43,763 nt of DNA from an uncultured beta proteobacterium. Lineage in GTDB: Bacteria; Pseudomonadota; Gammaproteobacteria; Burkholderiales; Burkholderiaceae_C. Shown in pieces: positions 25,249-36,662 of this stretch. The notes under the pieces were generated by a model. It was not told the origin of the DNA. It saw only the letters and a list, made by a program, of their open reading frames with translations, and did no database searches. The stretch covers positions 1-43,763 of the forward strand of contig CAJAVE010000022.1 of assembly GCA_903945325.1 (NCBI GenBank), read 5' to 3'. How positions within the stretch are numbered: the stretch's first letter is position 1; the number at the start of each line of letters is the position of its first letter. The translations under genes were made by a program, and so were the position numbers.

Positions 25249-25434
25249 CTAGCCCTTGGGGTGGGTGGACTTGCTTTTCGCACCGTGCATCTGTTTTTTA
25301 TCCGCAGCACAGCGTGGGGATTGGCTTGGGCCTGCAAAATTTTGCTGGACCCATTCCACAACGTGGCAATCTACTGGAAATCGCCGTTTGCATTGATGCG
25401 GGGCCAGAGGTATGACCCGCTAACACCATCCTGA
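25249..25434 (+). pseudogene. C-terminal fragment of an Mpo1-like membrane protein gene
   Basis: The translated stretch GVGGLAFRTVHLFF to PFALMRG and its following residues match residues about 142-195 of the intact gene at 28027-28638: 34 of 54 residues are identical in a hand alignment without gaps. The first 140 residues of the family are absent and the upstream sequence is unrelated. It is therefore the remnant of a diverged paralogue, or of an earlier copy, 2.6 kb away from the intact gene and in the same orientation. Confidence 0.75.
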
Positions 25435-25491: not shown

Positions 25492-26421
25492 TCAATATCG
25501 CTCCGGAACAATCATCTCCGGTGGAACCGGCTGGCGGATGTAGTCCTCGTTGCGGACGCGTGCGGGCAACTCAACGGCGTCTTGTTGCACCTCTTCGTAG
25601 GGAATTTGCTCCAACAAGTGGTGTATGCAATTGAGGCGAGCTGCTTTCTTGTCCACCCCTTGGACGATCCACCAGGGTGCTTCTGGAATGTGTGTGCGGT
25701 CCAGCATGATCTCTTTGGCTTTGGTGTAGTCTTCCCAGCGCACGCGGGATTCCAGGTCCATGGGGCTCAGCTTCCACTGCTTGAGCGGGTCATGGATGCG
25801 ACCCAAAAAGCGCGAGTGCTGTTCGTCGTCGGTGATCGAGAACCAGTACTTGATCAGTTGAATGCCGGAACGAGCCAGCATCTTTTCGAATTCTGGAACG
25901 GTACGGAAAAACTCTTCATATTCCGCATCGTTGCAAAAGCCCATGACCCGCTCCACGCCGGCCCGGTTGTACCAACTGCGGTCAAACAAAACGATCTCCC
26001 CCGCTGCAGGCAAGTGCGAGACATAGCGCTGAAAATACCACTGCGTCTTTTCCCGGTCATTGGGAGCGGGAAGTGCTGCCACGCGTGCTACGCGGGGGTT
26101 TAGCCTTTGCGTGATGCGCTTGATAACGCCGCCCTTGCCGGCCGCATCGCGCCCTTCAAACAAAATCACAACCTTGTGTCGGCTGCGTACCACCCAGTCC
26201 TGTAGTTTGACCAACTCACCTTGCAGTCGAAACAGTTCCTGAAAATATTGACGCCGGGCGGTTCTTTCTGCATCCGTTCGCACACCACTGGCCGCTGCAT
26301 TGAGTTCGTCCATGCTGCGGTCTTCCAGCTCCATTTCCAGCTCTTCGTCATAACTGTCCATCAGGTCTTCCCTGATCCGGCGGATCAGGTCTTCATGTGG
26401 TTGCGTGGAATCAGGACTCAT
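25492..26421 (-). CDS. ppk2: Polyphosphate kinase 2
   Basis: A 309-residue PPK2 enzyme transferring phosphate between polyphosphate and nucleotides. Walker A is FEGRDAAGKGG, Walker B is VLFDRSWYNRAGVE, and the lid includes KYWFSITDDEQ, RIHDPLKQWKLSPMD and the later IPEAPWWIV. It looks like a single-domain class I or III type; which nucleotide it uses cannot be read with confidence. The ATG at 26421 is preferred, since the longer frame begins with TTG. It is divergent from UDP-glucose dehydrogenase across about 160 bp. Together with the Pho-box-like sites to the right it suggests a phosphate-related neighbourhood. Confidence 0.9.
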   Translation of the reverse strand: MSPDSTQPHEDLIRRIREDLMDSYDEELEMELEDRSMDELNAAASGVRTDAERTARRQYFQELFRLQGELVKLQDWVVRSRHKVVILFEGRDAAGKGGVIKRITQRLNPRVARVAALPAPNDREKTQWYFQRYVSHLPAAGEIVLFDRSWYNRAGVERVMGFCNDAEYEEFFRTVPEFEKMLARSGIQLIKYWFSITDDEQHSRFLGRIHDPLKQWKLSPMDLESRVRWEDYTKAKEIMLDRTHIPEAPWWIVQGVDKKAARLNCIHHLLEQIPYEEVQQDAVELPARVRNEDYIRQPVPPEMIVPERY

Positions 26422-26579
26422 GGCGTGTTGAATAATGGTTGTGGGTCCGGCGAGCATAAGGCGAAATTGTGACAAGGTCGTGATGGTGAACCCTTGCCCA
26501 CACCCACCTATTCATATGTCACAAAACTATCGCAATACCCGGACAGACTTGGAACATTTTTCCTCAAGGAATCCAGACC

Positions 26580-27902
26580 ATGAAAATTTCAGTGATAGGA
26601 ACCGGGTATGTCGGTTTGGTAACGGGAACGTGCTTGTCGGAAGTGGGCAATGATGTAATGTGTTTCGACACGGATGAGGACAAAGTCAACCGTCTGCAAA
26701 ATGGCGAGGTTCCGATTTATGAGCCGGGTCTTCAGGAGATGATTCGGCGCAATGTCAGCGCTGGACGTCTGCACTTCACGAATAGTGTCGAATTGGCAAC
26801 CCAGTTTGGCACCGTTCAGTTCATCGCCGTGGGAACTCCCCAGGGAGAGGATGGCAGTGCCGATGTGCACTACGTGATGGAAGCCGCACGCAACATTGGC
26901 CGCCACATGAACGACTACAAGGTGGTGGTCGACAAGAGCACGGTCCCGGTCGGAACCGCAGATGCTGTAAGGGCTGCGATACAGGAGGAACTGGCGCAGC
27001 GCGGGGTGGATACACCGTTTAGTGTGGTGTCAAATCCGGAGTTTCTGAAAGAAGGCGCTGCCATCGACGATTTCATGCGCCCGGGACGCATCGTCCTGGG
27101 CTGTGATGACGAACAGGCGGCGTTGAACATGCGGGCACTTTATGCGCCGTTCCAACGCCACCACGAACGGCTGGTGTTGATGGATATTCGCAGTGCTGAA
27201 TTGACCAAATACGCCGCCAACGCCATGCTCGCCACGCGTATCAGCTTTATGAATGAGCTGGCCAATCTCGCGGAAAAAGTGGGCGCCGACATCGAAAGTG
27301 TCCGAAAGGGCATTGGGAGCGACCCGCGTATCGGCTACGATTTTCTCTATGCGGGTGCGGGCTACGGCGGCTCCTGCTTTCCCAAAGACGTCAAGGCGCT
27401 GATACGGACTGCGGCCAGCGAAGCGGGTATCGATCTCAAAGTTCTCAACGCGGTCGAGTTTGCCAACAACGCACAAAAGCATGTGCTGGGCAACAAAATT
27501 GTGGCCCGATTCGGTACTGATCTGACGGGGCGGCATTTCGCACTTTGGGGTCTGGCGTTCAAGGCCAACACGGATGACATGCGTGAAGCCAGCAGCCGTT
27601 CCGTCATCGACGACTTGTTGGCGGCGGGCGCAACGGTTACCGCCTACGATCCGGTCGCCATGGATGCCGCGCGGCGGATCTATGCCCATGAAGCCCGGTT
27701 GAGCTTTGCGGATTCCCAGTCGGCCAGTCTGAGCAACGCGGATGCACTGATTATCGTGACGGAATGGAAAGAGTTTCGTAGCCCGGACTTTGATGCGATC
27801 AAGAAAGCTTTGAAGTCCCCCGTCATATTTGATGGACGGAATTTGTACGATCCGCAACTTATACGCGGCATGGGCTTCGAATACATGGCTATTGGCCGCT
27901 GA
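26580..27902 (+). CDS. ugd: UDP-glucose 6-dehydrogenase
   Basis: A 440-residue NAD-dependent enzyme oxidising UDP-glucose to UDP-glucuronate. The N-terminal NAD motif is [11 protein letters not shown], the substrate-site stretches are [10 protein letters not shown] and [16 protein letters not shown], the catalytic cysteine is in [12 protein letters not shown], and the C-terminal UDP-binding half includes [24 protein letters not shown] lies just upstream of the ATG. The enzyme supplies UDP-glucuronate for capsule, lipid A or glycolipid synthesis; the GT4 glycosyltransferase 4 kb away is a possible user. Confidence 0.93.
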
Positions 27903-27971
27903 TGTGTCGAGCCCAGGGCGCATCAATGTCTTCCCTCCCTTGCACGCCAATTCACCATACCGTCACACTGC

Positions 27972-28005
27972 CTGTCACACGACTGCCATCAATTGCCACT
28001 AAATT
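27972..28005 (+). promoter_or_regulatory. Pho-box-like promoter of the Mpo1-like gene
   Basis: CTGTCAC and CTGCCAT, separated by 4 bp, each match the PhoB half-site CTGTCAT at 6 of 7 bases (27972-27989). A -10 hexamer TAAATT follows at 28000-28005, exactly 10 bp after the second unit, which is the usual layout of PhoB-activated promoters. The start codon is 21 bp further on, with AAAGGAG before it. PhoB control is inferred. Confidence 0.5.
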
Positions 28006-28026
28006 GAGGTAAAGGAGAAACCATCG

Positions 28027-28638
28027 ATGTCTGAATTTTTAAAGCAACTTGCCGTTCAGCGTTGGGACGACCACCGCTACTATCATCACAGCCGAATCAA
28101 CCAGTCGCTGCACCTGCTCAGTGCGATCAGCTTTTTAGTGGCCTATGCATTCCTGTTCAAGGATCCGGCCATTTCTGCACTGATTGGATGGCTTGTGTCC
28201 ATGACTGCGCGCCAGTCAGGGCACTTCTTTTTCGAACCACTAGGGTACGACGAGGTGAACCAGGCGACCAACTCCCACAAAGAGGCGATCAAGGTTGGCT
28301 ACAACCTGCGACGCAAGCTGGTCTTGCTTGGAATTTGGGCAGTCTCGCCCATGGTGATCGTGATGGATCCCACCTTGATGGGTTTGTTTGAAGCGCGTCC
28401 CGGCTTTGAGGGCTTTGTGCACAACACGGGTCTGCTCTGGTTGTGGATTGGGGTGGGCGGGCTTGTTTTCAGGACCGTGCACCTTTTCTTCCTGAAAGAT
28501 GTCATGTCGGGTCTGGTCTGGATGACCAAGATTCTGACGGACCCGTTTCATGATGTTTACCTGTACCACAAAGCGCCGTTTGCATTGATGCGTGGCGAGT
28601 TGATCGAGCCGCGCAAAAGCGGCGCAAACCACGCCTGA
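28027..28638 (+). CDS. Mpo1-like (DUF962-like) membrane protein
   Basis: A 203-residue membrane protein with about four hydrophobic segments (residues 30-45, 48-60, 98-113 and 135-158). The N-terminal YYHHSRINQSLHLL pattern (H20, H21, N25, H29) and the later GHFFFEP (H66) resemble the conserved histidines of Mpo1/DUF962 proteins; yeast Mpo1 is a 2-hydroxy fatty acid dioxygenase. The resemblance is distant and is inferred from the motif pattern only. It has AAAGGAG as ribosome site and a Pho-box-like promoter, and a truncated relative lies at 25249-25434. A fatty-acid or lipid role would fit the neighbours. Confidence 0.6.
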   Translation: MSEFLKQLAVQRWDDHRYYHHSRINQSLHLLSAISFLVAYAFLFKDPAISALIGWLVSMTARQSGHFFFEPLGYDEVNQATNSHKEAIKVGYNLRRKLVLLGIWAVSPMVIVMDPTLMGLFEARPGFEGFVHNTGLLWLWIGVGGLVFRTVHLFFLKDVMSGLVWMTKILTDPFHDVYLYHKAPFALMRGELIEPRKSGANHA

Positions 28639-28646
28639 TTCGCTTC

Positions 28647-28673
28647 GCAAGCCCCTCTTTTGGAGGAGCTTGC
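28647..28673. terminator. Bidirectional terminator hairpin
   Basis: GCAAGC-C-CCTC pairs with GAGG-A-GCTTGC around a TTTTG loop, giving ten base pairs with one C-A mismatch. It lies between the convergent ends of the Mpo1-like gene and the aminotransferase gene. No long T-run follows on either strand, but the position fits a shared terminator. Confidence 0.6.
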
Positions 28674-28678
28674 CATTG

Positions 28679-30343
28679 TTAGAACTTGGCCGCCAGCATT
28701 TCCCGAAGTATTCGACGCTTGATGGACTTGTTCGTCATCTCTGCATCGAGCCACCACCAGCCGTCCTGCTGCATCTTCTGGGCGGCCTTTACAAAACGGT
28801 CTGCCACTGCGTCAAAGTCGGCTTGTGTGTAATTCAAGCTGAAGATGATTCTGCCGCTGCCCACCCAACTCAGAGCCAAGCCTTCCAGGCGTAAATAGTG
28901 CTGAAACAACCAGTTGTAGCAAGCCGGCTGCGTGTACAAGACGGTCCAGATCGAGGACATATTGGCCACTTGGACCGGAACCTTCGCATCCCGCAGACGC
29001 TGGTTCAGCGCTTGCGCACGTTGATTCCAGATGTCGTCGAGCCCCAAGTAAAGTGCGCGAATATCCGGACTGTCAAGACGCTTCAGAAATGCGTTCATGG
29101 CGCCCATGACGTAGGGGTGGGAATTGAAGGTACCACGTGCAAAACAGATGTTGGCGGGAGACTCATCGCTGAAGCGTTGCATCCAGTCACGCTTGCCGCA
29201 CAACACGCCAACAGGCAGCCCGCCACCCAGCGTTTTTCCGTAGGTGACCATGTCAGCCTTCACCCCAAAGTATTCCTGTGCGCCGCCAGGCGCCAGACGG
29301 AAGCCGACAAAGACTTCGTCGAATATCAACGCGATGGATTTTTGATCACAAATAGCGCGAAGGTCTTTCAGCCATTGGGTGTAGGCCGTGCGCGAGAAAT
29401 GGGCTTTGCGCGCGCTGTCCAGCAAAGACGAATCGCCTGGTGCGGCGGCATTGGGGTGCAAAGCCTGGAGCGGATTGATCAGTATGCAAGCGATGTCGTT
29501 GCGGTTGCGCAGCACGCGCAGGGTTGCATCACCCATTTCCTCCAAAGTGAAGGTGTCGCGTTCGGTGACCGGGTTGCCAATGCCAGGCTGTACATCGCCC
29601 CACCAGCCATGGTACGAACCACAAAAACGCACGATCTTGCTGCGTCCGCTATGGAAGCGTGCCAGGCGCACGGCCTGCATGACGGCCTCGGTGCCCGACA
29701 TGTGAAACGACACTTCGTCCATGCCCGAGATGCGTTTCAATCGAGCCACGTTGTCGGAAACAACCGGGTGATACGAACCCAGAACCGGTCCGAGGGCGCG
29801 TACAGCGTCAGCGCCCTCGTCGATGCACTCTTTGTAGAAGTCGTTTCCAAAAAGATTGACGCCATACGACCCAGTCAAATCGTAAAAGCTGTTGTTATCC
29901 AGATCGGTGAGCGTTACTCCGTCGGTCGACTGCACAAACGAGGCAATTTTCAGGCCTTTGGTTGCCAGGTTTCTGAACTGGTAGGGAATTCTGTAGGCGC
30001 TGACAAATTGCAGGTCAGACAGGCCACTGGCAACGTCGGCACCTTGATGAAGGCTTTTGGGGAACCGTGCGCCGATTTCTGCAACCAGAATATTAAACGC
30101 CTGCTGCCGCCTTGCGACAATGTCAGCTGGCGCGCCATCCACGCCGAATACCTCTTCATCGCTGTAGCGGTAGCTCGGAAGCAGGGCGGCCAATCTTCGC
30201 GCCATGCGCGGATGGCCCGCCAAAGAGCGGTGCTTGGCCAGCGAGAGTTCCCCGCGTGCCTTGAGGCGTTTGAGCGCCAACAAAAATGCCGCTGTACTCA
30301 CACCATAGAGCAGCCAGGCATTCAATCCAATCGTTTCGTTCAC
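28679..30343 (-). CDS. Membrane-anchored class III (GSA-like) aminotransferase
   Basis: A 554-residue PLP enzyme of the glutamate-1-semialdehyde aminotransferase type. A hydrophobic N-terminal helix (about 8-25, AWLLYGVSTAAFLLALK) and a further 80-residue extension precede the catalytic fold. Core motifs are MSGTEAVMQAVRLAR, FCGSYHGWWGD, FDEVFVGFR and the PLP lysine in TYGKTLGGGLPVGV. The start is GTG with AAGGAA 8 nt upstream. It is divergent from the phosphatidylserine decarboxylase gene, with only 45 bp between start codons. True HemL lacks the membrane helix, so a different amine or keto substrate, perhaps lipid-linked, is likely. Function is not assigned. Confidence 0.82.
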   Translation of the reverse strand: MNETIGLNAWLLYGVSTAAFLLALKRLKARGELSLAKHRSLAGHPRMARRLAALLPSYRYSDEEVFGVDGAPADIVARRQQAFNILVAEIGARFPKSLHQGADVASGLSDLQFVSAYRIPYQFRNLATKGLKIASFVQSTDGVTLTDLDNNSFYDLTGSYGVNLFGNDFYKECIDEGADAVRALGPVLGSYHPVVSDNVARLKRISGMDEVSFHMSGTEAVMQAVRLARFHSGRSKIVRFCGSYHGWWGDVQPGIGNPVTERDTFTLEEMGDATLRVLRNRNDIACILINPLQALHPNAAAPGDSSLLDSARKAHFSRTAYTQWLKDLRAICDQKSIALIFDEVFVGFRLAPGGAQEYFGVKADMVTYGKTLGGGLPVGVLCGKRDWMQRFSDESPANICFARGTFNSHPYVMGAMNAFLKRLDSPDIRALYLGLDDIWNQRAQALNQRLRDAKVPVQVANMSSIWTVLYTQPACYNWLFQHYLRLEGLALSWVGSGRIIFSLNYTQADFDAVADRFVKAAQKMQQDGWWWLDAEMTNKSIKRRILREMLAAKF

Positions 30344-30388
30344 GGAAATATTCCTTTTTTAGACAACAAACTTGCGAGACCTTGAGAA

Positions 30389-31270
30389 ATGAGCCTGCGT
30401 CAACAAATCCACAGCCTGCTTAACCAGGAAGACCTGAATTTCCTGCTGACCAATCGACTGCCGCGTCGCTTTCTGACCCAGTTCATGGGTTGGTTCAGCA
30501 AGATCGAACAGCCTCTGGTGCGGGACTTTTCCATTGCCATCTGGAAGTACTTTTCTGCCCTTGACCTCACGGAGGCGAGGAAGACTCAGTTCACCAGCAT
30601 GCACGACTGCTTCACCCGCGAACTCCAACCGGGCGTGCGTCCGTTGGCGATGGACCCCCGGGTGATGGCGAGTCCGGTAGACGCGATCATTGGCGCGTTC
30701 GGTCCCATCGAGGGCACGCGTGTGTTCCAGGCCAAGGGTTTTCCGTACACGCTGCAAGACCTTCTGGGTGATGAGGAAAACATCAGTGACTGGGTGGATG
30801 GCAGCTTTGTCACCCTGCGACTGACGTCGAGCATGTACCACCGGTTCCACGCACCCTGTGACTGCACAGTCGAAAAGGTACGGTACTTCTCGGGCGACAC
30901 CTGGAACGTCAACCCCATCGCACTGCGGCGCGTCGAGAAGCTTTTCTGCAAGAACGAACGGGCTTTTATACGTACCAGGCTTGGTGGAGATGGCCCCTGT
31001 GCCGGTTTGCATGTGGCGCTGGTGCCAGTAGCCGCTATTCTGGTGGCGAGTATCCGGTTGCACTTTTTGGATGTGCTGTTTCATCTGAAGTACAACGGAC
31101 CCACGTCCATCGTGTGCGACGCACCGTTCAAAAAAGGTGATGAGATGGGCTGGTTTCAGCACGGATCCACCATCATTGTTCTGGCGCCAAAGTGCTTTAC
31201 CCTCGACGATGGTCATGAACAAGGGTCCCATGTGCGCATGGGTCAGGCCCTCATGCGCTGGACTGGCTGA
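30389..31270 (+). CDS. psd: Phosphatidylserine decarboxylase family protein
   Basis: A 293-residue protein of the PSD family, which makes phosphatidylethanolamine from phosphatidylserine at the inner membrane. The early segment CFTRELQPGVRPL, then SPVDAIIGAFG, YHRFHAPCDC and the C-terminal processing motif FQHGSTIIVL are present; HGST stands for the usual LGST, in which cleavage before serine creates the pyruvoyl group. Length is close to E. coli Psd (322). It may be a second copy or a specialised decarboxylase. Its 3' end overlaps the convergent glycosyltransferase gene by 20 bp. Confidence 0.85.
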   Translation: MSLRQQIHSLLNQEDLNFLLTNRLPRRFLTQFMGWFSKIEQPLVRDFSIAIWKYFSALDLTEARKTQFTSMHDCFTRELQPGVRPLAMDPRVMASPVDAIIGAFGPIEGTRVFQAKGFPYTLQDLLGDEENISDWVDGSFVTLRLTSSMYHRFHAPCDCTVEKVRYFSGDTWNVNPIALRRVEKLFCKNERAFIRTRLGGDGPCAGLHVALVPVAAILVASIRLHFLDVLFHLKYNGPTSIVCDAPFKKGDEMGWFQHGSTIIVLAPKCFTLDDGHEQGSHVRMGQALMRWTG

Positions 31271-32462
31271 GCGGTGAGGTGCGAACGGGCTGGCTAGGCT
31301 GAGTGAACTGCCTACCATGCCGCTCCAACACGCCCGAGAGGGTTTCCACAAAGCTGTCGAATACGGCATCCCACCCCACATGGGCTACGCTGGCTGGAGC
31401 GGCCTGGCGAATTCTCTGCAGCTTGGCCGGATCCAGTGCCAATGCGACTGCTGCATCGATAAAGTCGAGTTCGTCGGTTTTGGTTATCAATGCGCCGTTG
31501 CTTCCATCGGTGATCAGTTCCTTGGCTGCTGCATGGTCATATGACAGTACGGCCAGACCGCTGGCCAATGCTTCGGGTACGACATTGCCAAAAGTCTCGG
31601 TCAGGCTGGGGAATAGAAACAGGTCGCCGCTGGCGTAGTGAGTGGCAAGTTCCTCTCCTTTGCGCACACCGGCAAACAAGGCGTCCGGGCAAGCTACTTC
31701 AACTTGCTTTCGCAAAGGCCCGTCGCCTACAAAAACCATTTTCGCGTCCGGCACCCGAGCCTGAATCGCACGGAATGCTGAAATCACCAAAGCGATATTT
31801 TTTTCCTTTGCCAACCGGCCCACATGCACTGCAACCAGGGTGTTGGGCTCCACGCCCCAACTCGCGCGCAATGTGTGCGAACGTTTGTCGGGGTGAAATT
31901 GGTCTGTTGCAACGCCACGAGACATCAGTGTCACGTTGTTGTAGCCTCGCGATTGCAGCTCCGCAACCATGGCACGGGTGGGTACCAGTGTGGCTTGCGT
32001 GCGGTTGTGCAATTTTTTCAGATAGCCTTCGATGGGCTTCTTGAAGAGTCCGATTCCGTAGTGTTGTGAATAGCTCTGGAAATTGGTGTGGAAGGAACTG
32101 GTGACGGGAAGTTGCAGGGCGCGTGCTGCAGCAACTGCGGACCATCCCAGGGGGCCTTCAGTAACTACGTGCACGATGTCCGGGCGCTTTTCACTCCAGA
32201 GTTTGATCAGTCGGGTTTTCGATGGCAAGCCGAACCTTAGGTCCCCATAGGCTGGCACAGGAACACCCCTGGATAAGACCTCATCGAGCCCGACACGGGA
32301 GTCCAGGTTGGCTTCTTTGGCCTGGCGTGGCCTGACAATCTGGATCGCGTGTCCGCGTTGCAGCAAGCCATCGACGATACGTCCCAGAGTCATGGCAACG
32401 CCATTGACTTCGGGTGGAAAAGTCTCCGTCACTATCGCAATCCGCAAGCTTGGCGCTCGCAC
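31251..32462 (-). CDS. GT4 family glycosyltransferase (SqdX/MgtA-like)
   Basis: A glycosyltransferase of about 403 residues with two Rossmann domains. The N-terminal LRIAIVTETFPPEVNGVAMTL is the start pattern of GT4 enzymes of the SqdX/MgtA type, which glycosylate lipids. HVVTEGPLGW, SSFHTNFQSY and the C-terminal ETFGNVVPEALASGLAVL (the EX7E retaining motif) follow. The start chosen is the GTG at 32462; the frame extends to a TTG at 32522, but that would place the Pho-box-driven start point inside the gene. Activity on diacylglycerol with UDP-sugar is inferred from the subfamily resemblance. Confidence 0.85.
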   Translation of the reverse strand: MRAPSLRIAIVTETFPPEVNGVAMTLGRIVDGLLQRGHAIQIVRPRQAKEANLDSRVGLDEVLSRGVPVPAYGDLRFGLPSKTRLIKLWSEKRPDIVHVVTEGPLGWSAVAAARALQLPVTSSFHTNFQSYSQHYGIGLFKKPIEGYLKKLHNRTQATLVPTRAMVAELQSRGYNNVTLMSRGVATDQFHPDKRSHTLRASWGVEPNTLVAVHVGRLAKEKNIALVISAFRAIQARVPDAKMVFVGDGPLRKQVEVACPDALFAGVRKGEELATHYASGDLFLFPSLTETFGNVVPEALASGLAVLSYDHAAAKELITDGSNGALITKTDELDFIDAAVALALDPAKLQRIRQAAPASVAHVGWDAVFDSFVETLSGVLERHGRQFTQPSQPVRTSPLSQSSA

Positions 32463-32508
32463 CGCGAAGGACTCTACAAATAGTTCATATGGATTGTTCA
32501 CGCACTCA

Positions 32509-32553
32509 AGGCTACTGGTCAAAGATAACAGTTTGATGATGATTTCTTGACAG
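32509..32553 (-). promoter_or_regulatory. Three-unit Pho-box-like array upstream of the glycosyltransferase
   Basis: On the minus strand three 7-bp units, CTGTCAA, TCATCAT and CTGTTAT, are separated by exactly 4 bp each (32553 down to 32525). They match the PhoB half-site CTGTCAT at 6, 4 and 6 of 7 bases. A weak -10, TAGCCT, lies at 32514-32509, again 10 bp after the last unit. The 11-bp period repeated twice is unlikely to be chance, though the -10 is poor. Confidence 0.5.
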
Positions 32554-32582
32554 TTTTAAGACGGTGTGTCTACAGGCGCAAT

Positions 32583-33824
32583 TCAGTAGGGATTGGCGCC
32601 GGGTGCCAATAGCAGCCTTTGACGGTTGAAGACCAGAACGGCCATCGTCACCGTTACCAGAGCGCTAAAACACCAGATCAGCGAATGCAGGGATAGTTGT
32701 GCGGCTGTAGCTGCCGCATAGACCGCCAGCATCACGAGCATGCCGGCATTTTCATTGAACCCCTGGACTGCAATGGAGCGACCAGCGGTCAGCAGACTGC
32801 AGCCACGGTGTTGCAACAGGGCGTTCATGGGCACGATAAAGAACCCTGCAAGTGTTCCCAGCACGATCAATAGCACGACCGCAGCCGTAACTGACTGAAC
32901 ACCCAGCATGACTGGAAACAACAGACCCATCACAATTCCCAGGGGCAAAACGTTGATGGCCTGGTGAAGAGAGACAAACCGACTGGCCAAAACAGCGCCT
33001 GCTATGGCACCAAATGCGGTCACACCCTGCAGGTAGGCACCTTGCGCCAGCGACAGACCCAACGCCTCGTTGGCCCATCGCAGCACAATCAGTTGCAAGG
33101 TTGCGCCAACGCCCCACAACAAGGTGGTGACGGACATGGAGATGCCACCCAGCGGATCTCTCCACAAGACGGCGTTTTCACGGAAGAAGCGCTGGATCAC
33201 CAGCACCGGATGAAATGAATGCGCCGGGTAGCGCTTTCCGCTGTCAGACACGCCAAAGTTCAGGCACAGTGCCAGCGCGTTGAGGCCCACCAGGCAGAGC
33301 ATGCCCGCAACCAACTGGGTCGGTGTGGTGTCAAATTGGGAGTAATCGGTCGGCAGGTCAATGTGCGGCATGATGGGACTGATCAAAACGCCTCCCAGCA
33401 CCGTGCCGAGGATGACGGCGCAAACCGTTGTGCTTTCAAAGAAGCCGTTGGCGCGCACCAGGTCTTTGGGGGGTAACAGTTCAGTCATGAGTCCGTACTT
33501 GGCGGGTGCGTAAATTGCCGCGCCCAAGCCGCCAAACAGCAACGAAAGAACCGGGTCGACACCAGAGAGAAGTAGCATGACGGCTCCGACCTTGATCCCA
33601 TTGGCCATAACCATGACGCGGCCTTTGGGAATCGCGTCGGCCAACGGCCCGACAAACGGCGCGAGCAGGACGTAAAACACAGTGAAACCGATCTTGAGCA
33701 GCGGTGTCACCCAGTCCGCAGACGATAGTTCAATCACCCTTGCGATGGCGACAATGAGAAAGGCGTTGTCCGCAATCGTCGAGATGAACTGTACGATCAG
33801 GAGCAGGTAGAAATTACGGGGCAT
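32583..33824 (-). CDS. lplT: Lysophospholipid transporter LplT-like MFS protein
   Basis: A 413-residue major facilitator with about twelve hydrophobic helices. RNFYLLLIVQFISTIADNAF, then LLAPFVGPLADAIPKGRVM and YAPAKYGLMTELLPP are the LplT pattern; LplT flips lysophosphatidylethanolamine inward for reacylation. The ATG at 33824 is used, 11 bp inside the preceding TRAP permease gene, so the two are coupled; the longer frame upstream is not credible. No Aas acyltransferase is fused or adjacent. Its link to a TRAP transporter operon is unusual. Confidence 0.85.
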   Translation of the reverse strand: MPRNFYLLLIVQFISTIADNAFLIVAIARVIELSSADWVTPLLKIGFTVFYVLLAPFVGPLADAIPKGRVMVMANGIKVGAVMLLLSGVDPVLSLLFGGLGAAIYAPAKYGLMTELLPPKDLVRANGFFESTTVCAVILGTVLGGVLISPIMPHIDLPTDYSQFDTTPTQLVAGMLCLVGLNALALCLNFGVSDSGKRYPAHSFHPVLVIQRFFRENAVLWRDPLGGISMSVTTLLWGVGATLQLIVLRWANEALGLSLAQGAYLQGVTAFGAIAGAVLASRFVSLHQAINVLPLGIVMGLLFPVMLGVQSVTAAVVLLIVLGTLAGFFIVPMNALLQHRGCSLLTAGRSIAVQGFNENAGMLVMLAVYAAATAAQLSLHSLIWCFSALVTVTMAVLVFNRQRLLLAPGANPY

Positions 33825-35652
33825 ACAAGAGACCCGGCAGATAAGTGGCGGTGGCGGGTACAAAGGCAATTGCCAGGGTTCCCAGAAAGATTGCCAACAC
33901 CGCCGGAACAACCGCACCTGCCACGTAGCGCACGGGTTTGTTGAACATGGCAGACGCAAAATAGATGTTCATGCCGGCCGGTGGGCACAAAAATCCCAGT
34001 TCCATATTGGCCAGAAAGATGATGCCGAAGTGCACCGGGTCAATGCCGTAACTCAGTGCCACTGGCAGAAGCAATGGCACCAGCACCACAATGGCAGCAA
34101 AGATTTCCATCAATGCTCCAGCAGCAAACAGAAATAGATTGAGCGTGAGCAGGAATACCCACTTGTTGGGTATAACCCCCTGAACCCACTCAATCGCCAG
34201 GTCCGGAATGCCCGCTTCAATCAGGTAGTTGGTCAGGCCGAGCGCCATCCCAAGAATCAGCATCACGCCACCGATGATCTGGGCGCAGTCGCTCAGGGTG
34301 CGCGCCAGCTTTTGAAAGCTGAGTTCGCGATGGACCAGCATTTGGGTGAATACGGCATAGACCGCAGCAATCGCGGCGCTTTCGGTGGGTGTTGCCAACC
34401 CGCTGACCAGCGCGCCTATCGTGACGACCGGTGCCAGAATTTCCCACTTGGCTGCCCACAGGGTGGTTGTGATGTCAGGGCCAGTGGTTGCTGGCGTAAC
34501 GCCCAATTTCACGGTTGACACAGGGCTCTGGCGCGTCAGAAACCCACCAAATACCAATAGAAAGGCCACCATGATGACAGCGGGAATCAGCCCCGCCAAG
34601 AACATCGTGTTAATCGGTACGCGGGCAATGATGGCGTACATGATGAGAGGAACCGATGGTGCAAGCAGTACCCCCAGCGCACTCGCACTGGTGACCAGAC
34701 TGATACCGCGCCGCTCGGGAAATCCGGCATCGCGCAACAGGGGTAGAAGCAAGCCGCCCAACGCCAGAATGGTGACACCACTGCCACCGGTAAATGCGGT
34801 GAATGCGGAGCACAGCACCGCGCTGGCCACCACCGTGCCGGTAGCGCCACCCCCGAACAGTGCTACAAAGACCGCACCCAGCCGTTTGGTGGCACCAGTG
34901 CGCGCAAATACCAGGCCCGCCAGCGTGAACAGTGGCAACGCAGGCAAGGACGGGTTCACCGTGATTTGGTAGTGCGACAAGGGAACGGATGCAAGCGGCA
35001 GGGCGTCTTGCCAGAATAGGGCCAATGCCAGTCCACCCAATACCGTGAATATGGGCGCGCCAAACAGCAGTGACGCCAGCAGTGCGATGAGGATCGGCCA
35101 AATTGGCACTGCGGTACCGTCCAGTTGCCAACCCAGCATGAAGCCCACCGCCACTGGCAATAGGCTTCCCAGGATTTTTTGCCACCGTCCGCTTATTCCC
35201 TGCGCACCCAATTGACTACCCAGTAGCAGTAAACCCAACGGCATGCTGGCCTGGATCCACCAAACCGGGATGCCATAGGCCAAAATGTGGGCGACCTGGC
35301 GCTCACTGTCGACCAGACGCCAACTGGCGATGCACAGCGTGCCGCAAACCAAGGCGCCAAACAGCTTTGCGAAAACCTGACTGTGAGCCAACGTGCGCGG
35401 ATAGTGGGCTGGAATGAAGCCGCTGCCAAACGTGCTCAGGTGTCCATGCCTAAGCGCTGCAACAGAGCCAAACATGGCCATGGCAAGCCCAAGGTGCTGC
35501 ACGACGACCGGAGCGTTCTCAATGCCACTGCCTGCGACGGGACGCAGCAGTATCTCTACCAGCGGTATGACAGCCATCAGCACCAGCGCACAGGATGCCA
35601 GCCATTCGTCAAGACGGCCAGCGCCGCGTAATTTGCGCGACATCACGCTCAT
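33814..35652 (-). CDS. Fused TRAP transporter permease (DctQ-DctM)
   Basis: A 612-residue integral membrane protein joining the small (DctQ-like, about residues 1-165) and large (DctM-like, about 185-612) TRAP subunits. The DctM part shows the FTGGSGVTILALGGLLLPLL and GLATPTESAAIAAVYA signatures and CPPAGMNIYFASAMF. It uses the sodium gradient to import a ligand delivered by the periplasmic binding protein. It overlaps dctP by 4 bp upstream and lplT by 11 bp downstream. Confidence 0.92.
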   Translation of the reverse strand: MSVMSRKLRGAGRLDEWLASCALVLMAVIPLVEILLRPVAGSGIENAPVVVQHLGLAMAMFGSVAALRHGHLSTFGSGFIPAHYPRTLAHSQVFAKLFGALVCGTLCIASWRLVDSERQVAHILAYGIPVWWIQASMPLGLLLLGSQLGAQGISGRWQKILGSLLPVAVGFMLGWQLDGTAVPIWPILIALLASLLFGAPIFTVLGGLALALFWQDALPLASVPLSHYQITVNPSLPALPLFTLAGLVFARTGATKRLGAVFVALFGGGATGTVVASAVLCSAFTAFTGGSGVTILALGGLLLPLLRDAGFPERRGISLVTSASALGVLLAPSVPLIMYAIIARVPINTMFLAGLIPAVIMVAFLLVFGGFLTRQSPVSTVKLGVTPATTGPDITTTLWAAKWEILAPVVTIGALVSGLATPTESAAIAAVYAVFTQMLVHRELSFQKLARTLSDCAQIIGGVMLILGMALGLTNYLIEAGIPDLAIEWVQGVIPNKWVFLLTLNLFLFAAGALMEIFAAIVVLVPLLLPVALSYGIDPVHFGIIFLANMELGFLCPPAGMNIYFASAMFNKPVRYVAGAVVPAVLAIFLGTLAIAFVPATATYLPGLLYAP

Positions 35653-36662
35653 TTTCTCTGGGTCTGACGGTAAGCCCTGACGTGCGTGAACACCTCATCA
35701 AAGGTATCCGCCGGGACCATGCTGCCACGAATGCGTGGATACAGTTTTTCAGCCAAATCATTCCATTCCTGCATTTCCTGCACATTGGGCTTGTGCACGA
35801 TAAGGCCGCGTTTCTTCATGGCCTCAACGGCCTCGTCCACTTCGCGGCGGGCCTGGGCGCGCATTTGTATCCCGGCCTTTTCACCCGCCACACGCAACGC
35901 ATCCTGTGCCGCGGGAGTCATTGCGTCCCACGCCCTGGTTGTGACAACCATGGCACCGACGATGGGAGCCCAGTTGATCTCCAGCATGTGGGGTGCCGTG
36001 TTGTAGATCTGACTGGCCAGCGCGAAGTAGGGTGTTGACGGCACCACGTTGATCATGCCGGTCTGCATGGCCGGCAGAATGTCGGCAGTCTCGAGCGGTA
36101 CGGGGGTATAGCCCAGGCTTTTCATGATGGACTGTTGCTCTTTCTCAGCGCCCCAGGAAAAGAACTTCATGTGCTTGTAGTCGTCTGCACGAACGGCTGC
36201 ATCCTTGGAGAAAAATCGCACCCAGCCTGCATCGCCCCATGCCAGCACCACAAAGCCTTTGTCGAAAAACTTCTTCTCCATTGCGGGCCGCATCTTTTCA
36301 CGCACATAGTCCAGTTCTTCCCAGCTTTTGAAGAGAAGTGGCAAGCTTTGCAAGGCAGTGATGGAAGGTTCAATTTCACGCAGCCCGACTACAGACATCA
36401 GTGCGGACTGCAACTGGCCGATGCGCAGGCGACGGGCCATTTCCGCTTCCCCGCCCTGGCTGCCATCGGGGTACACCACGTATTTGGAAGCGCCACCCTG
36501 CACAGTGCGCCATGCTTCACCAATCTCCATCAATTGGCGGTGGTACAGAGAGTTCTTGGGCGCCAGTGTGCCCACACGCAGCGTGATGTCGGCTGCATGG
36601 GCAAGGATTGAATTTCCGAGGATCAGTGCCAAAGCGAAAAGTGTCGTCAGTGTATTTTTCAT
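35649..36662 (-). CDS. TRAP transporter substrate-binding protein (DctP/TatP type)
   Basis: A 337-residue periplasmic binding protein with a signal peptide ending near AHAAD. LRVGTLAPKNSLYHRQL, then AEMARRLRIGQLQSAL and VPLETADILPAMQTGMINVVPSTP are typical of DctP-family proteins, including the ligand-binding region. The residue usually anchoring a carboxylate ligand (Arg in the GAFTF-like strand) is not evident to me, so an organic acid should not be assumed. It lies between tatT and the fused permease, as in TatT-associated TRAP systems. Confidence 0.9.
   Translation of the reverse strand: MKNTLTTLFALALILGNSILAHAADITLRVGTLAPKNSLYHRQLMEIGEAWRTVQGGASKYVVYPDGSQGGEAEMARRLRIGQLQSALMSVVGLREIEPSITALQSLPLLFKSWEELDYVREKMRPAMEKKFFDKGFVVLAWGDAGWVRFFSKDAAVRADDYKHMKFFSWGAEKEQQSIMKSLGYTPVPLETADILPAMQTGMINVVPSTPYFALASQIYNTAPHMLEINWAPIVGAMVVTTRAWDAMTPAAQDALRVAGEKAGIQMRAQARREVDEAVEAMKKRGLIVHKPNVQEMQEWNDLAEKLYPRIRGSMVPADTFDEVFTHVRAYRQTQRK

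Follow-up and report, generated by a model that had tools for sequence, protein, structure and literature searches.

The window analysed here is an entire contig (C22; CAJAVE010000022.1, 43,763 nucleotides) of the draft genome of an uncultured beta proteobacterium, whose assembly has 4.7 Mb and is 90% complete. Four of its genes encode an Mpo1-like protein (MPO), a class III aminotransferase (AMT), a divergent paralogue of phosphatidylserine decarboxylase (PSD) and a GT4 glycosyltransferase (GT4). They constitute a conserved gene cassette, which was found in Burkholderiales, in Bradyrhizobium-type bacteria and in further Pseudomonadota. Genes for a UDP-glucose dehydrogenase (UGD) and for the lysophospholipid transporter LplT lie on either side. 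The locus very probably functions in phosphate-responsive lipid remodelling, as judged by comparison among genomes. Its features are listed in Table 1.

Table 1. Genes and Pho-box-like sites at the locus, with positions in the window
Feature	Position	Strand	Evidence	Relation to the cassette
PPK2 polyphosphate kinase	25492-26475	-	TIGR03707, 372 bits (cut-off 302)	Neighbour in the window, seldom elsewhere
Pho-box-like site at the 5' end of ppk2	26469-26486	-	11/14; overlaps the called TTG start	
Pho-box-like site in the ppk2/ugd gap	26516-26533	+	11/14	
UDP-glucose dehydrogenase (UGD)	26580-27902	+	TIGR03026, 443 bits (cut-off 190)	Frequent neighbour
Pho-box-like site before MPO	27972-27989	+	13/14; 37 bases ahead of the start codon	
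MPO, Mpo1-like	28027-28638	+	PF06127, E=0.024, 15.2 bits (under the cut-off of 24)	Core member
AMT, class III aminotransferase with hydrophobic N-terminal helix	28679-30343	-	PF00202, 110 bits (cut-off 30.5)	Core member
PSD, divergent phosphatidylserine decarboxylase paralogue	30389-31270	+	PF02666, 185 bits (cut-off 22); TIGR00163, 156 bits (cut-off 112)	Core member
GT4 glycosyltransferase	31251-32522	-	PF13692 and PF13439, both above cut-off	Usual member
Pho-box-like site before GT4	32547-32564	-	11/14	
LplT lysophospholipid transporter	32583 to ~33824	-	NF008397, 443 bits (cut-off 297)	Frequent neighbour
TRAP transporter, fused DctQ-DctM, then DctP	33814-36662	-	Adjoins LplT	A permease of similar type accompanies the cassette at 6 of 137 distinct loci

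A sequence-only reading that preceded this analysis had named ppk2, UGD, an Mpo1-like gene, an aminotransferase, PSD, GT4 and lplT at this place, and all of them were recovered by profile checks made gene by gene. Family membership, linkage and co-occurrence of the set, paralogy of the PSD and enrichment of Pho boxes were computed directly. The locus counts were made after removal of exact duplicates only; near relatives stay and the loci are mutually related. Loci were picked for MPO or AMT, so that the count of the anchor itself is uninformative, and many stretches end at contig ends. Within 8 kb of 137 distinct MPO loci, AMT lies in 135, PSD in 133 and any GT4 in 116. Conservation of the gene set in other genomes, which the earlier reading had put forward as a check, was thus borne out for MPO, AMT and PSD, and for GT4 in the share given. 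The four loci without PSD comprise two that stop at a contig end (L150, L208), one with a partial match (L205) and one with none (L182). A set of 40 loci (stretches of 14-20 kb, 20 obtained via AMT and 20 via MPO) holds MPO in 39, AMT and PSD in all 40 and GT4 in 35. Contigs of GTDB genomes were also scanned with an MPO alignment, which matched at least 594 stretches with at least 568 relatives; the best 80 of these relatives hold MPO in 80, AMT in 79 and PSD in 77. For loci picked via MPO alone (n=100, some genomes being present in both contributing sets), AMT was found in 99 and PSD in 97. PSD (55 of 61) and a handful of other genes are undercounted in a clustering of 61 loci, since at some loci long antisense frames were chosen in their place.

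In a sample of 398 genomes of Pseudomonadota (E up to 1e-80 for AMT and up to 1e-10 for MPO), AMT and MPO are each present in 25 genomes and occur together in 24, which leaves one genome with AMT only and one with MPO only. These two genomes are G517, which is 90% complete and has its AMT on a 4.4-kb contig, and G641, which is 78% complete. When 150 genomes from the same family were searched, 44 reached the AMT cut-off; 38 genomes, the window's own included, have AMT at 53% identity or more, and the matches in the other six are all of 32-35% identity. Among 250 genomes at the level of the order, 29 have MPO.

The order of the genes varies among lineages. Most Burkholderiales have PSD and AMT as one divergent pair and MPO and GT4 as another; in the Rhodoferax group, including the window, GT4 sits behind PSD. 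The Bradyrhizobium order is a GT4-PmtA-MPO run, then AMT and PSD, and family f79 has an AMT-GT4-PSD-MPO run, all on one strand. The set has been rearranged across lineages and not dispersed, which argues for a joint function. Among the matches listed, the named nearest relatives of the window MPO are Rhodoferax and other Comamonadaceae, and the culturable carrier genera are Variovorax, Hydrogenophaga, Rhodoferax, Rubrivivax and Bradyrhizobium.

Other genes within 8 kb of the 137 loci are PlcP (39), LplT (38), PmtA (30), UGD (24), PPK2 (6) and a TRAP permease (6). PPK2 and the TRAP permease were both rejected as cassette members on these counts, and the TRAP transporter is therefore probably unrelated to the cassette. 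The region had earlier been drawn at 25492-35652, which is too wide because 33814-35652 holds the TRAP permease, unlinked to the set. The start of LplT was placed where the NF008397 match begins.

Pho-box-like sites were scored over the 14 positions of CTGTCAY-N4-CTGTCAY, which we take to be the Pho-box consensus (not trained on this genus), in the 300 bases upstream of a gene and with a threshold of 11/14. The site before MPO is the top scorer of the whole 43.8 kb, where 0.15 sites of 13/14 are expected. Sites of 11/14 are at chance level over the entire window (10 observed vs 12 expected); two short gaps contain or border three of these ten. The two sites around the ppk2/ugd gap had not been named in the sequence-only reading. 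In distinct regions, sites of at least 11/14 were found upstream of MPO in 93 of 134, of GT4 in 64 of 82 and of the Bradyrhizobium-type GT4 in 27 of 34, against 64 of 470 for other genes of the same loci and 5-10% in shuffled sequences of the larger groups. The corresponding counts are 13/24 for UGD, 56/137 for AMT, 53/133 for PSD, 15/34 for LplT, 17/41 for PlcP, 1/30 for PmtA, which is internal in its gene run, and 0/5 for the TRAP gene DctP. For MPO the enrichment has P=7e-35; such values are too small, since relatives are treated as independent, and it is the effect size that matters. Pho-box-like sites in the cassette promoters are thus present beyond chance, except in the AMT/PSD gap of the window, and a site was found at each of the two places, before MPO and GT4, where Pho-box-like arrays had been seen, with enrichment among relatives. 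In L082 and L083 the cassette adjoins a pst run and phoB (PstS of L082 and PstB and PhoB of L083 were named by profile, the other pst genes there by cluster). Genes of pst/pho type, assigned by cluster or tblastn, lie within the stretch of others, e.g. L095, L097, L071, L076, L096, L159, L181 and L200. Control of the cassette by PhoB is what we infer from these sequences.

It is improbable that the genes are neighbours for some other reason, such as cell-surface polysaccharide or general stress, with sites that are the similar direct repeat of another regulator. The sites are consensus matches only and, as is generally known, GT4 and UGD occur in polysaccharide loci too; such an explanation has to accommodate pst/pho genes and PlcP as neighbours and a core that includes a lipid decarboxylase family.

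The GT4 resembles lipid glycosyltransferases, with diacylglycerol as its putative acceptor. Its best NCBIfam models, GlcN_PG_synth and MGlcDAGSynMgs, are both under cut-off, and its best match in the PDB is PimA (E=2.9e-16). UGD likely supplies UDP-glucuronate. The name PlcP was assigned from a motif; by profile the protein is a calcineurin-like phosphoesterase, related to LpxH under cut-off. At E up to 1e-40, PlcP is encoded in 18 of 18 cassette genomes without a long GT4 fusion versus 130 of 374 other genomes. Some of the 18 have no nearby GT4, and PlcP is thus not tied to the ordinary cassette GT4. The genome of the window has a PlcP-type homologue outside the window (G000:C136:32251-33027, 61% identity to the L102 query).

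Several further observations concern these partners. On contig C136 (32251-33749), plcP lies 0.4 kb from a gene with PF13444 (OlsB-type), which makes up a second phosphate-type lipid locus; the same adjacency occurs in G070 and G087. GT4 fusions with an N-terminal extension of about 500 amino acids are present in L138, L140, L142, L143, L145 and L146. The N-terminal part had no Pfam match at E up to 1 in the two proteins scanned; a PHP phosphoesterase domain, for which motifs were seen by eye in two proteins, is not claimed. The extension might stand in for PlcP. A PmtA-like N-methyltransferase gene sits between GT4 and MPO in 14 of 14 Bradyrhizobium loci (e.g. L187, L190, L193) of the best 80 relatives, and likewise in L130-L135. 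One representative was compared with solved structures and is closest to the phosphatidylethanolamine N-methyltransferase 8ys9.

MPO is probably a membrane protein. The window member misses the curated PF06127 cut-off (Table 1). The profile matches 35 of 35 scanned family members (E up to 10 allowed), with a best value of 2.4e-5, and any other Pfam family matches at most three of the 35. Invariant in 35 sequences are D14, D15, H16, H20, N25, H29, Q63, G65, H66 and E70, all but the first two of them within the matched stretch. H16, H20, H29 and H66 are putative iron ligands. The yeast protein Mpo1 is a 2-hydroxy fatty acid dioxygenase. An AlphaFold2 model of MPO is mostly helical and confident (predicted local distance difference test, pLDDT, 87.8). 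A fold search with this model gave no convincing solved structure, a result that neither shows a new fold nor excludes one. Ahead of the cassette, at 25249-25422 (+), the window holds the remnant of a second Mpo1-like gene, of which only the last 55-58 codons match; they are 60-62% identical to residues 139-196 in the complete MPO. A full-length second MPO match was seen on the opposite strand near the UGD gene in L171, a Rhodoferax bin, and G707 carries two MPO copies.

AMT is a class III aminotransferase by its PF00202 profile, its fold and a kept lysine of the pyridoxal phosphate (PLP) type; D342 and K370 are invariant in 35 sequences. A membrane anchor was judged by eye from a hydrophobic N-terminus and a predicted helix at residues 3-36. 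The protein does not exceed the curated hemL cut-off (TIGR00713, 175 bits vs 527). Its closest solved structure, by sequence and by fold, is the aminotransferase domain of mycosubtilin synthase, 6kfm (sequence E=3.5e-50, target TM score 0.82, 28% identity in the fold alignment). Seven weaker matches in the family have 32-35% identity, and six of these lie in open frames of 1,547-5,032 amino acids, as expected for polyketide or peptide synthetases. Both the 6kfm match and these long frames would suit a reaction on acyl chains, in which AMT, like the mycosubtilin domain, converts beta-keto to beta-amino acyl groups and 2-hydroxy acyl chains are shortened or oxidised by MPO, to give an amino-acyl or sphingoid-like lipid; the substrates of yeast Mpo1 are 2-hydroxy fatty acids. 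The 6kfm relationship fits such a reaction as well as it fits the amination of a keto lipid that is proposed below. We consider the acyl-chain reaction unlikely; it leaves the linkage of PSD unexplained, and neither an acyl carrier protein nor a ketosynthase is among the identified recurrent neighbours (about half of 27 clusters).

Because its catalytic motifs are kept, the cassette PSD is probably an active enzyme, but an old one that is separate from other PSDs. SPxD, YHRFH and GST are retained in at least 98% of 133 cassette sequences; we take GST to be the self-cleavage motif and the Asp and His of SPxD and YHRFH to be catalytic positions. A tree was built from 46 cassette PSDs (that of the window plus 45 drawn at random from the other 132) and 22 PSDs from outside the cassette; it divides the two groups with a support of 100/100 and branch lengths of 2.5 and 3.0. 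The bootstrap of this tree had not fully settled, and its 22 non-cassette PSDs are best-scoring matches, the shorter type of Bradyrhizobium-like genomes not being in it. A further PSD match was found in 48 of the 48 cassette genomes tested, out of about 87 known, with two or three PSD matches each; in G036 it is partial, cut by a contig end, and G487 has a weak partial match (E 1.1e-4). In the genome of the window the other PSD is on contig C304. The cassette PSD as sole PSD of its genome was rejected on this count.

An ordinary phosphatidylserine decarboxylase working with PmtA is a serious rival, even if we hold it to be rather unlikely. The cassette PSD would then be a phosphate-starvation isozyme that keeps phosphatidylethanolamine, and with PmtA phosphatidylcholine, supplied while PlcP uses phospholipid; AMT and MPO would separately adjust acyl chains or head-group precursors. 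The kept processing and catalytic motifs agree with this, as do a score above the TIGR00163 cut-off and, next to the cassette in Bradyrhizobium-type genomes, PmtA, whose known substrate is phosphatidylethanolamine. More phospholipid, however, is an odd answer to phosphate scarcity, and all 48 genomes already have a further PSD match; moreover, a very long branch parts the cassette PSDs from the 22 others, and the close linkage of PSD with AMT and MPO is left unexplained.

Phosphate-responsive lipid remodelling, the function proposed in the sequence-only reading, is therefore well supported for GT4, MPO, AMT and PSD on account of linkage, co-occurrence, Pho-box enrichment and the neighbouring pst/pho and PlcP genes; for ppk2 the case is weak, and the TRAP permease drops out. 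In more specific terms, we lean somewhat towards a PhoB-controlled membrane-lipid remodelling cassette of two arms, a glycolipid arm and an MPO-AMT-PSD arm. In the former, PlcP, encoded elsewhere in the genome, would convert phospholipid to diacylglycerol, to which GT4 would add a sugar, probably glucuronate via the neighbouring UGD. For the latter, it is an evenly balanced question whether MPO, AMT and PSD catalyse successive steps on a single lipid, and we would expect an amine lipid as the product with rather more doubt than confidence. The tentative proposal is an undescribed three-enzyme route to an amine-bearing membrane lipid in the phosphate-starvation response, i.e., a phosphorus-free or phosphorus-sparing counterpart of phosphatidylethanolamine, which might be methylated by PmtA in some genomes. 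MPO would oxygenate a lipid-linked hydroxy acid to yield a keto group, AMT would aminate this group at the membrane to an amino acid lipid, and the divergent PSD would take off the carboxyl group to leave a free-amine lipid. Bradyrhizobium-type genomes may pass the amine lipid on to the PmtA-type N-methyltransferase. The gain could be a zwitterionic or cationic lipid that offsets the anionic glucuronosyl glycolipid when phosphate is scarce. As with PhoB control, we infer the substrates, the step order and the product; the order is suggested by the chemistries of the families, in which a protein resembling oxygenases would be followed by an aminotransferase, then by a decarboxylase acting on amino-acid lipids and, in some genomes, by an N-methyltransferase acting on amine lipids.

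A number of points weigh against this two-arm proposal. L080 has AMT and PSD and neither MPO nor GT4 nearby, L182 has MPO and AMT and no PSD, and several loci (e.g. L088, L099, L104, L139, L141, L144) are without a nearby GT4. The AMT/PSD gap of the window has no site of at least 11/14 (best 9/14), and such a site is present for only about 40% of the relatives' AMT and PSD genes. Because a single gap often serves both MPO and GT4, and another both AMT and PSD, the site counts are not independent. PlcP is missing at E up to 1e-40 in six of 24 cassette genomes, all with a long GT4 fusion. The oxygenase role of MPO is uncertain because of the weak PF06127 match and the fold search without a solved match, and the reaction of yeast Mpo1 shortens a 2-hydroxy acid and leaves no keto acid. 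The substrates of the nearest relatives of AMT are beta-keto acyl thioesters or glutamate semialdehyde rather than alpha-keto acids. Genes with PF13444, a family wider than OlsB, were found in 37 of 38 family genomes with the cassette AMT and in 29 of 31 without it (69 genomes, comprising all 38 with and 31 of the 112 without; a few matches are weak, E 1e-15 to 2e-4). A replacement of ornithine lipids by the cassette is not supported by these counts; PF13444 genes are about as common with the cassette as without it, and the cassette is therefore an addition and no substitute for ornithine lipids.

Bacteria of soil and freshwater are often short of phosphate, and the known rebuilding of their membranes consists mainly of PlcP-Agt glycolipids, ornithine lipids and betaine lipids. 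The gene set MPO-AMT-PSD-GT4 was not found in the open-access literature, as covered by titles and abstract openings, often for part of the matches. In agreement with the earlier remark on the aminotransferase-decarboxylase pair, no role for it in such a pathway was found within the same open-access literature. Within a known regulatory and lipid kind, the three-enzyme module thus appears undescribed in open-access sources, and the conserved, Pho-linked combination of aminotransferase, decarboxylase and Mpo1-like protein points to a lipid, or to a step, for which no assignment was found there. Its presence in culturable genera makes it amenable to single-gene deletion and lipidomes.

The nearest known system is the PlcP-Agt pathway, which makes glucuronosyl diacylglycerol under phosphate limitation, e.g. 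in Methylosinus trichosporium OB3b (PMC9239053). The cassette is like it in its phosphate-linked regulation, here inferred, in a GT4-type enzyme, in a UGD able to give UDP-glucuronate and in a PlcP, which many of the genomes concerned encode close to the cassette or at another place. It differs in that the known pathway consists of two proteins, whereas the cassette core has three more enzymes and at times no GT4; the words 'aminotransferase' and 'phosphatidylserine decarboxylase' have no occurrence in the main text of PMC9239053.

The cassette PSD belongs to the same family (PF02666/TIGR00163) as known phosphatidylserine decarboxylases and retains the motifs for self-cleavage and catalysis, but it forms a long-branch clade, is extra to another PSD and is linked to AMT and MPO. 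AMT shares its fold and its PLP-type lysine with the mycosubtilin aminotransferase domain and with glutamate-1-semialdehyde aminomutase; unlike them it is a protein on its own that carries a hydrophobic helix at the N-terminus, where it is about 130 residues longer, and it has other partner genes. PF06127, the family of yeast Mpo1, matches every MPO member scanned, and the histidines of the matched stretch are invariant. In contrast, MPO has 203 amino acids against the 95 positions of the profile, the window member stays under the cut-off, and no genes of sphingolipid breakdown are among the identified cassette neighbours. Synthesis of ornithine lipids by OlsBA is likewise an answer to phosphate limitation that yields a phosphorus-free lipid, but by other enzymes, and the PF13444 genes coexist with the cassette, neither replaced nor excluded by it.

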